Assembly: GCA_900114805.1 (NCBI GenBank) | Contig: FOZN01000001.1 | Span: 558,001 to 622,000, forward strand | DNA: 64,000 nt | Origin: Agrococcus baldri | Lineage (GTDB): Bacteria > Actinomycetota > Actinomycetes > Actinomycetales > Microbacteriaceae | Direction of reading: 5' to 3' | Shown here: piece by piece, positions 55,644 through 57,107 of the stretch | How positions within the stretch are numbered: the stretch's first letter is position 1 | How the letters are laid out: the number at the start of each line of letters is the position of its first letter | Position numbers and translations under genes: made by a program | Notes under the pieces: generated by a model | Told to the model about the DNA's origin: nothing | Databases searched by the model: none | The model's input: the letters and a program-made list of their open reading frames with translations, nothing else

Positions 55644-57107
55644 TCACCGCGTCGTGCGCAGGCGGCGCGTGCCGATCATCAGGAGCGAACCCAGCGCCAT
55701 GAGCGCGAGTGCCAGCGGCAGGATGCCGGAGAGCTCGGCGCCCGTCTGCGGCAGCTCCGCAGCGGCGTCGGCCGTCACCGGCAGGCTCGCGCGATCGTCG
55801 GCCGGCGTGTCACCGCTGGGGACATCGACCTTGCCGTCATCGCCGGGGTCACCAGGCGTGCCCGGGTCGCCGGGCTCACCGGGCGTACCGGGGTCACCAG
55901 GCGTGCCCGGGTCACCAGGCTCACCGGGCGTGCCCGGGTCACCGGGCTCACCGGGCGTACCGGGGTCGCCGGGCGTACCCGGGTCACCAGGCTCACCAGG
56001 CGTACCCGGGTCACCAGGCTCGCCGGGGTCGCCAGGCTCACCAGGCGAGCCGGGGTCAACGGGCGTGCTGGCGGTCATGCAGTCGCTGGTCGTCGCATCG
56101 CCGACGAGGCCGATCGCGTTGCAGCCGACAGCCACCGGCACCTGCACGCCGATGTCGCCGAGCAGCCCATCCAGGATGCCGCCGTCACCAGTGGTCGAGC
56201 CGTTGGATCCCGTGGTCTCCGAGGAGGACTCGACGCTCGAGCCCTCGCTCGTCGCGTCGCCCAGCACGCCGACGGCGTTGCCGCCGACCGCGATCGGCGC
56301 TGCTGCGTCGATCACCGCCTGCGTACCGCCCAGCAGACTGCCGTCACCAGAGGTGACCGGCATGTCTGAACCACCGGCCGTGCCCGACTCGGTCATCGCA
56401 CCATCGCTGGACGCATCACCGAGCACCGCGACAGCGTTGCCGCCCGCCGCGATCGGCGCCACCACAGCACCGACGACCTGCGTGCCCGAGAGCACACCGT
56501 CCTCGCCCGACGTGGACGACGCATCCGCCGACGAACCCGCCGACGAGGCCGACCCCGTCATCGCGCCGCTGCTCCAGGCATCGCCCAGCACGCCGACGGC
56601 GTTGCCGCCGACGCTGATGGGCGCTGCCACGTCGGCCAGCGCCTGGGTGCCGCCCAGCAGGCTGTCGTCGCCCGAGGTCGACGCTGCCGCCGCCTCGTCG
56701 CCGCCCGCTGCGCCTGCCGTCGACTCCGCGGTCGAGCTCTCGCTCGTCGCGTCGCCTGCCACACCGATCGCGTTGCCCGCGATCGTCACCGGCACGTCGA
56801 CCGCCACGAGCGCCGCCGTGCCCGAGAGCACACCGTCGATGCCGGAGGTCGAGACATCGGCCGACGGCGATTCAGCCGCCGGCGCGGTCGACGTCGTGGA
56901 CGCATCCGTCGTCTCGGCATCGCCGAGCACGCCGAGGGCTGTGCCGCTGATCGTCACCGGCAGCGAGACATCCACCACCGCCTGGTTTCCCGAACCGATG
57001 GCATCGGTGCCGTCGGTCTCTGCTGCACTGGCGATCCCAGTGCCTGCGGCCCACAGGCCGCCCGCGACCGCTGCTGTGCACAGCGCTCGCCACATGAGCT
57101 TGTTCAT
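55644..57107 (-). CDS. Sortase-anchored protein with six chaplin-like repeats and collagen-like stalk
   Basis: A 487-residue surface protein. A signal peptide ends near ASA-AE (about residue 28). Six chaplin-like repeats follow, each about 30-33 residues with a core like [15 protein letters not shown], separated by Ser/Thr/Ala/Gly-rich linkers, to about residue 345; only the last repeat has a Cys pair (VGCNA and SDCMT). Next is a stalk of PGxPGx (Gly-X-Y) triplets of about 70 residues. The C-terminus has LPQTG, a hydrophobic span and RRLRTTR, a full cell-wall sorting signal. Chaplins assemble into amphipathic fibres; here the repeats would be wall-anchored. The start at 57107 has AAAGG upstream. 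It is in one operon with the 57185-58192 gene. I infer a surface-coat or adhesion role. Confidence 0.82.
55835..56060 (-). repeat. Collagen-like 9-bp tandem repeats
   Basis: Repeated GGxxCACCxGG-type units encode PG(D/E/T)PG triplets in the stalk of the chaplin-like protein. The 9-bp units occur in higher-order 27-bp and longer arrangements ([15 protein letters not shown]). Slippage could change stalk length in frame. Confidence 0.75.
56080..57040 (-). repeat. Six degenerate coding repeats of about 140-190 bp
   Basis: The chaplin-like units recur at intervals of roughly 140-190 bp with a shared core that encodes [15 protein letters not shown] sequence (GCGTTGCCGCC and GCCGACGGCGTTGCC are recurrent words). 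They arose by internal duplication of the gene. Confidence 0.7.

Follow-up and report, generated by a model that had tools for sequence, protein, structure and literature searches.

The window, that is, the whole stretch of 64,000 nucleotides of Agrococcus baldri DNA that was analysed, carried on one strand and in this order imuA', the gene P0002, a gene for a repeat protein, imuB and dnaE2, and hence an SOS mutasome cassette split by two genes for secreted proteins (Table 1). The terms "slot" and "slot gene" were used for the interval between imuA' and imuB and for the repeat protein gene located there. The position of this gene inside a cassette for DNA damage-dependent mutagenesis is unusual. 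Its coordinates and strand were correct in a first-pass annotation, which mentioned neither the position in the mutasome cassette nor the variable slot content nor the leader RNA. An antisense frame on the plus strand (55543-57129), open and collagen-like owing to the GC-rich repeats, was rejected, since signal peptide, repeats, sorting signal, partner-gene spacing and conservation all belong to the minus strand. P0002 yielded no Pfam or NCBIfam match at E-values up to 1. The imuA' reading frame overlaps with its start the SOS box, and the true start is probably located later.

Table 1. Features of the slot gene and of the surrounding cassette.
Feature	Position	Strand	Evidence
Slot gene (487 aa; start codon ATG 57107, stop 55644), repeat protein related to chaplins, with sortase anchor	55644..57107	-	ORF, Pfam
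Signal peptide, residues 1-28 (predicted cleavage site)	57024..57107	-	
Repeat 1, residues 26-71	56895..57032	-	profile search
Repeat 2, residues 82-127; best chaplin-domain match, 19.5 bits	56727..56864	-	profile search
Repeat 3, residues 139-183	56559..56693	-	profile search
Repeat 4, residues 194-238	56394..56528	-	profile search
Repeat 5, residues 248-291	56235..56366	-	profile search
Repeat 6, residues 301-345, with Cys329 and Cys343, adjoins stalk	56073..56207	-	
Stalk, 25 Gly-X-Y triplets, residues 353-427	55827..56051	-	Pfam, sequence reading
Sorting signal: LPQTG (452-456), hydrophobic span, basic tail RRLRTTR	55647..55754	-	
Structured RNA element, three helices, 84 nt, P0002 end to slot-gene start codon	57108..57191	-	
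Partner gene P0002, secreted Ala/Val/Pro-rich protein, ends EEHTASPD	57185..58192	-	
imuA'	58297..59040	-	NF058630, 132.6 bits (cut-off 65)
LexA-type box TCGAAC-N4-GTTCGA, perfect, at imuA' start	59015..59030	.	
LexA-type box TCGAAC-N4-GTTCGA, perfect, at imuB start	55507..55522	.	
imuB-like Y-family polymerase homologue	53913..55514	-	sub-cut-off DNA polymerase IV matches only; imuB by context
dnaE2, error-prone DNA polymerase	50345..53761	-	1351 bits (cut-off 939)

A Pfam search of the slot protein detected the chaplin family ChpA-C (PF03777) in three stretches with 35.7 bits (cut-off 21), and the PF03777 scan of the genome gave 22.8 bits for the best single stretch. The repeats comprise about 45 residues each and are separated by linkers of Ser, Thr, Ala and Gly. 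The mature protein contains Cys at positions 329 and 343 only, which leaves five of the six repeats free of Cys. The Gly-X-Y stalk and the complete sortase signal claimed by the first-pass annotation were both confirmed, the former as 25 unbroken triplets with 60.2 bits for Collagen (PF01391), the latter by Gram_pos_anchor (PF00746, 21.1 bits, cut-off 20) and the NCBIfam model LPXTG_anchor (TIGR01167, 16.2 bits, cut-off 15.9).

To compare the repeats with chaplins, a profile was employed which consisted of 50 domains that a regular expression had picked out of 22 loci from class-level relatives. For 21 of these loci the source was a single family, presumably the streptomycetes, with genomes of 5.8-11.0 Mb and 6-15 PF03777 matches each; the remaining locus came from another family. 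The profile detected six domains in the slot protein with a total of 37.2 bits, one of them weak at 2.2 bits. Of 2,000 shuffled versions of this repeat region, 910 gave any reported score, 9.6 bits at best. A second profile, made from 37 repeats of four Agrococcus relatives with the slot protein excluded, also detected six repeats. Profile-profile comparison of 110 Agrococcus repeats with the chaplin domains resulted in a score of 33.8 (probability 93%), and 100 column shuffles reached 18.4 at the highest; a forced global alignment was weaker (score 25.5, 33%). These differences between real and shuffled sequences exclude a chance origin of the chaplin likeness. Cys-bearing repeats of Rhizohabitans (L025) and Microtetraspora (L027) took an intermediate position, scoring 56.7 to the Agrococcus repeats and 55.0 to the chaplin domains. 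Thus, the six chaplin-like repeats initially proposed were found with both profiles, although the six PF03777 regions predicted for them became visible only in the more permissive profile searches, Pfam itself passing three.

The likeness is incomplete. The chaplin-profile match covers positions 2-40 of 52, and the slot-protein repeats lack the segment that contains the third GN motif and the second Cys (LNPAFGNTC). The first GN motif was found only in repeat 1, the second in four of the six repeats and the third in none. Canonical chaplins are described with three GN motifs per domain (PMC13251363, accessible part) and with a conserved pair of Cys in each domain, except in ChpE and in domain 2 of ChpB (PMC13251363, PMC3079736, accessible parts). 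In repeat 6 the Cys pair is spaced C-x13-C versus x17 in typical chaplin domains, and in the alignment it lies one column off the Cys found in the repeats of Microtetraspora and Rhizohabitans. The earlier statement that only the last repeat keeps the Cys pair is therefore right in its location and doubtful in its verb, as the pair may have been re-acquired instead of retained. Due to the missing segment and the Cys-poor repeats the slot protein, a member of PF03777, fails two features of canonical chaplins; judged by its sequence it is a distant, Cys-poor, multi-repeat variant and not a canonical chaplin. Loss of Cys alone would be no bar to self-assembly, since the Cys-free ChpE still forms amyloid (PMC3079736, accessible part). 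The P, G and N core positions were invariant or nearly so in 37 aligned repeat pairs.

The structural models were poor. The AlphaFold model of the whole protein (7 sequences) reached a mean pLDDT of 41.5 and showed, at low confidence, one beta-hairpin per repeat, and a two-repeat fragment (37 rows) gave short strands only with a mean pLDDT of 46.7. A Foldseek search of the PDB with the whole-protein model yielded no significant match, the single match having an E-value of 7.7. In a PDB sequence search at E-values up to 1, none of the 57 matches listed covered repeats 1-5; all began no earlier than residue 329, and nearly all fell within the collagen-like stalk.

The stalk is composed of 9 GDP, 7 GTP, 6 GEP and 3 other triplets, with Pro nearly always in the Y position and Asp, Thr or Glu in the X position. 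A triple helix is possible. We consider it slightly more probable, however, that the run serves as an interchangeable Pro-rich, acidic wall spacer which forms no collagen triple helix. The run holds 17 acidic residues versus 1 basic residue, and relatives carry PTDPVDP (G017), PTDPTVP (G011), GTDGTD (G018) or PTTP-type Pro-rich spacers without Gly periodicity at the same place. Against a mere spacer stands the Gly at strictly every third residue through 25 triplets, as does the retention of 20-35 Gly-X-Pro-type triplets in seven Agrococcus relatives (G007, G008, G004, G019, G005, G014, G022).

In a search proposed in the first-pass annotation, class C and class E sortase genes were detected elsewhere in the genome, which contains four sortase genes: one of class E (212.7 bits, cut-off 160), two of class C (230.5 and 245.6 bits) beside pilin-like genes with LPLTG or LPITG, and a class-F-like one just below its cut-off (160.2 versus 166 bits). 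Class C sortases serve pili, and class E is for this reason the likeliest enzyme for the slot protein. The two class C genes lie at G000:C6:258399-266120, each adjoining pilin-like LPxTG genes, probably as two sortase-pilus clusters. The class-F-like gene (L005, G000:C7:395736-396161) is located directly 3' of a gene whose secreted product has a membrane span at its C-terminus. In Streptomyces coelicolor SrtE1 and SrtE2 anchor ChpA-C, and SrtE recognises or prefers LAxTG (PMC5148588, accessible part), whereas the slot protein carries LPQTG instead. LPxTG is also present in the other Agrococcus slot genes examined, except for LAETG in G005; outside the genus LAxTG was found in five of six fetched Micrococcales loci (L032-L037).

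Of the 24 genomes of the genus, 20 yielded imuA' and 20 yielded imuB, and neither was found in G003, G010, G012 and G015. The two genes share a contig in 16 genomes, and 11 of these have a slot of about 2.7-6.9 kb occupied by the slot gene and another gene with a secreted product. Relatives of P0002 were identified by tblastn in nine of the 11, the window included and G013 by a short C-terminal match only; in G006 and G018 an ORF with similar ends only takes the place. G016 has about 740 bp between imuA' and imuB with a remnant still ending in a sorting signal. In G001 233 bp and no slot gene were found, which reflects either loss of the slot or the state before insertion; this cassette (L129, G001:C1:1522000-1536000) kept the second LexA box before imuB and has an inverted repeat in the 233-bp gap. 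In the divergent clade G021, G023 and G009 imuA' and imuB are adjacent, and a chaplin-like gene lies about 1.6-1.9 kb upstream of imuA'. The two genes are split between contigs in G004, G019, G022 and G020, with pieces of a slot gene beside one or the other in the first three. Outside Agrococcus no slot-like linkage was present among the matches listed, which contained two neighbouring pairs, G031 (on opposite strands, about 7 kb apart) and G366. The stalk-like match beside imuB in G366, from another genus of the family, was ruled out as a slot gene because the Gly-X-Y stretch lies within imuA' itself. This imuA' frame (L130:7393-8385) holds the stretch GNTGDPGNPG... before its conserved part, which is either odd for a cytoplasmic protein or precedes the true start of translation. 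Two further irregularities were noted. Agrococcus sp. Marseille-P2731 has two copies of the locus on one contig (NZ_FPEG01000001.1), in opposite orientation and with identical match statistics (L021, L022), either through an inverted duplication or through an artefact of assembly, the genome being listed as 8% contaminated. In G011 imuB is broken (C1:2794370-2795668) and its last approximately 99 residues lie about 263 kb away (C1:2531438-2531734), suggesting a rearrangement breakpoint or a misassembly within the cassette.

The slot genes share signal peptide and sorting signal, and the middle differs; the signal peptide of the slot gene resembles those of slot genes with unrelated bodies. Chaplin-like arrays were found in the slots of G000, G007, G008, G002, G013, G005, G017, G004, G019 and G006, Cys-pair repeats of the type DADVC...LLG...C in G014, G022 and the G016 remnant, VDLGDG-type repeats in G011 and short DGTVGEVLD repeats in G018. 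The last genome provides the clearest case of a variable slot between conserved flanks: its DNA is identical to the window by 94.6% over 50345-55549 and by 90.4% over 58362-60718, and between these flanks only 55656-55755 (73%) and 57005-57306 (80%) align. A Cys pair just before the stalk recurs in G000, G007, G008, G004, G019, G005, G017, G021, G011, G018, G014, G022 and the G016 remnant; it is absent in G002, G013, G009 and G023, and the G006 protein has its own Cys-rich tail. In G005 the slot gene is present in two overlapping frames of 634 and 357 aa (L072:7847-10521), due to a frameshift, a sequencing error or decay to a pseudogene. An exceptional hypervariability of the slot is not claimed here: another LPxTG protein of the genome, used as a control, is also fast-evolving, with 64% identity over its best stretch in G018 and fragments only in G019, G002, G004 and G005, so rapid change occurs outside the slot as well. 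The nested slot provides a naturally occurring set of surface proteins exchanged at a single locus.

The perfect LexA-type sequence was found twice in the window, with a mean of 0.01 and no case of two in 100 shuffles, and it agrees with the LexA motif of Streptomyces venezuelae, tCGAAC-N4-GNNCGa (PMC9380542, accessible part). Among the fetched loci that contain the respective gene start, all 16 of the main clade, the window and the slot-free G001 included, show a separate perfect box for imuB, compared to none of the 4 uninterrupted cassettes outside this clade (L030, L073, L075, L035). For imuA' the perfect box was present in 14 of 15 main-clade loci (absent in G016) and in 4 of 4 outside loci. 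In a fifth outside cassette, G366, imuA' is preceded by one box that deviates at a single position, and imuB by none. The second box thus goes with the split cassette, which would fit a separate induction of the two halves. One might assume that the slot genes themselves belong to the SOS response by read-through from the imuA' promoter, so that damage by UV or drying would induce a protective coat together with the mutasome. The two boxes flanking the slot, the arrangement of five genes on one strand and the absence of any intrinsic terminator-like site from the minus strand of 55000-59300, in a scan covering U-tract terminators, agree with this. However, no perfect box was found before P0002 or the slot gene, the box of imuB suggests an insulated slot and counts somewhat against read-through, and the linkage was confined to Agrococcus among the matches listed. 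We regard such SOS control as unlikely.

Between P0002 and the slot gene the RNA is predicted to be structured. The segment 57108-57190 folded better than shuffles (z -3.0, with 2 of 200 shuffles as good), while the imuA'-P0002 gap (z -0.83) and the gap after the slot gene (z -1.10) folded no better than theirs in single-sequence folds. Thirteen of 15 Agrococcus leaders gave an outer helix enclosing two hairpins in single-sequence folds, and G006 and G014 had other minimum-energy folds. In an alignment of 11 leaders 94.8% of the cells were paired compared to 27-44% in slid versions, a value which leans towards the named structure because the latter was derived from the same sequences. Covariation was modest: both sides had changed in 4 of 26 pairs (shuffled mean 1.2, reached by 3 of 500), and further pair types were no more frequent than in shuffles (10 versus 10.0; 369 of 500). 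A model of the 11 leaders (R2) recovered leaders not used for it in G017 (60.8 bits, E-value 5e-14), G023 (31.6 bits), G009 (26.8 bits) and G006 (24.7 bits), and the search did not list the G021 leader. In G021, G023 and G009 the outer helix differs in sequence yet still pairs in single-sequence folds. With strict filters on 120 genomes of the family one match each was obtained in G000, G002 and G018, plus two weak ones outside the genus (G369 and G392, about 25 bits, E-value about 0.006 per genome) which may be due to chance. R2 also gave 21.4 bits on the reverse strand of the element itself and 18.3 bits at another place in the window, so scores in this range mean little. An Rfam search of 56950-57300 gave no match to the element at E-values up to 10. 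The element precedes chaplin-type and other slot genes alike and is a candidate for a new RNA element with a defined position, which might set the ratio of P0002 to slot protein or act in processing or stability of the mRNA. Elsewhere in the window, a ZMP/ZTP riboswitch (RF01750, 59.7 bits) was found at 33848-33926 on the minus strand. One may combine these observations into a mutasome split by an exchangeable surface-protein slot, with a constant signal peptide and sortase tail, a common Cys loop next to the stalk and a variable middle, where the leader RNA would set expression and where expression or diversification would be tied to the DNA damage response. We see little probability in this combination.

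We favour with some confidence a slot gene that encodes a secreted, wall-anchored surface protein of the PF03777 type whose repeats provide a hydrophobic or adhesive coat. We infer export, anchoring, stalk geometry, self-association and coat or adhesion role as follows. The signal peptide would direct export, and a sortase, most likely of class E, would cut at LPQTG and link the protein to peptidoglycan. The acidic Gly/Pro-rich stalk would then carry the repeats outward through the wall, where six hydrophobic, hairpin-forming repeats may self-associate or bind to surfaces and in this way form the coat. The Cys pair of repeat 6 might fix the base of the repeat array. This reading is supported by the scores for PF03777, PF01391 and PF00746, by a chaplin likeness well beyond shuffles with Cys-bearing repeats in between, by the layout in common with long chaplins, by the class E and class C sortase genes, by the Cys pair recurring beside the stalk in relatives and by the low-confidence hairpins. 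Against the coat speak the missing end of the chaplin domain, the five Cys-free repeats, the poor models, the lack of short chaplins among the genome's scored candidates and the LPQTG in place of LAxTG. Moreover, Ser, Thr and Asp abound in the linkers as judged by eye, not by computed hydrophobicity, and the protein for this reason looks less hydrophobic than chaplins. Alternatively, the product might be mainly an adhesin-like, variable surface protein in which the repeats are a quickly evolving spacer or an array for binding, and the likeness to chaplins is a matter of ancestry without an amyloid coat. The proteins with the same ends and different repeats in G014, G011 and G018 are in line with this, as is the span of repeat counts in apparently complete related proteins, from 4 (G029, G059) to 27 (G006), counts of 2-4 also arising from proteins cut at contig ends or split into frames. 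Attachment has also been suggested as a possible older role of chaplins in a 2013 report of chaplin-like proteins from a non-mycelial bacterium, the rod-coccus Arthrobacter chlorophenolicus (PMC4255298, accessible part). However, the near-invariance of the P, G and N core points to a fold or an assembly role under conservation wherever repeats of the chaplin type were kept, and we consider the adhesin alternative clearly the less probable one.

Concerning distribution, PF03777 matches were obtained in 52 of 246 genomes sampled across the class and in 11 of 60 near relatives. The slot protein itself matched in 19 of 24 genus genomes, a few covering stalk or ends only, and in 79 of 199 sampled family genomes (E-values up to 1e-6), part of them again by stalk or ends, so both counts are upper bounds for repeat-bearing relatives. 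Named relatives are, among others, Agrococcus baldri, A. terreus and Agrococcus sp. Marseille-P2731. The genus Agrococcus is not known to be filamentous, and a chaplin-related anchored surface protein is less expected in this group. Chaplins are usually read as a tool for aerial growth; multi-repeat anchored relatives in bacteria thought to lack aerial hyphae make it testable whether attachment or the hydrophobic coat came first. In the open-licence literature, judged by titles, abstract openings and accessible passages, no description of the Agrococcus slot protein or of the split imuA'-imuB cassette was found. The novelty of the architecture implied at first was not borne out, in view of the Arthrobacter proteins and of the layout shared with long chaplins.

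Comparing the slot protein with known systems, the collagen-like adhesins Scl1/SclA also combine a Gly-X-Y region with LPXTG, but the score for this family was 18.6 bits versus a cut-off of 400 and the match was confined to the stalk. CwpA and CwpB of Actinoplanes missouriensis are likewise SrtE-anchored hydrophobic surface proteins, yet without chaplin domains according to their authors' analysis (PMC13251363, accessible part). The proteins of Microtetraspora (L027) and Rhizohabitans (L025), with 6 and 8 repeats, have the core GNQ...P...GNA in common with the slot protein and differ by a Cys pair in most repeats and by the lack of a Gly-X-Y stalk; no LPxTG or LAxTG was found near their C-terminal end. 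Micrococcales relatives from the family (G025, G027, G031) and the order (G053, G059) possess 4-8 similar repeats and a sortase-type C-terminus, but with LAxTG, without a Gly-X-Y spacer and outside of a mutasome cassette, G031 at about 7 kb from imuB. Long chaplins are sortase-anchored (PMC5618241, PMC5148588, accessible parts), and 16 ORFs with chaplin domains and a C-terminal L(A/P)xTG were fetched for comparison, all 16 with LAxTG. Their longest Gly-X-Y runs were 22, 19, 18 and 16 triplets in four ORFs and 1-6 in the other twelve, and a Gly-X-Y stalk as in the slot protein is thus present in some. With ChpA-C the slot protein shares signal peptide, tandem PF03777 domains, Pro-rich stalk, sortase signal and basic tail. 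ChpA-C differ by two domains versus six, by Cys in most domains, by the full-length domain with the third GN motif, and by LAxTG with short chaplins alongside; in the Agrococcus genome no short chaplin was found and the slot gene was the sole PF03777 match among 17 scored candidates. The architecture is already known from the long chaplins of Streptomyces, and on sequence grounds the slot protein is a multi-repeat relative of these, encoded without short chaplins beside its gene.
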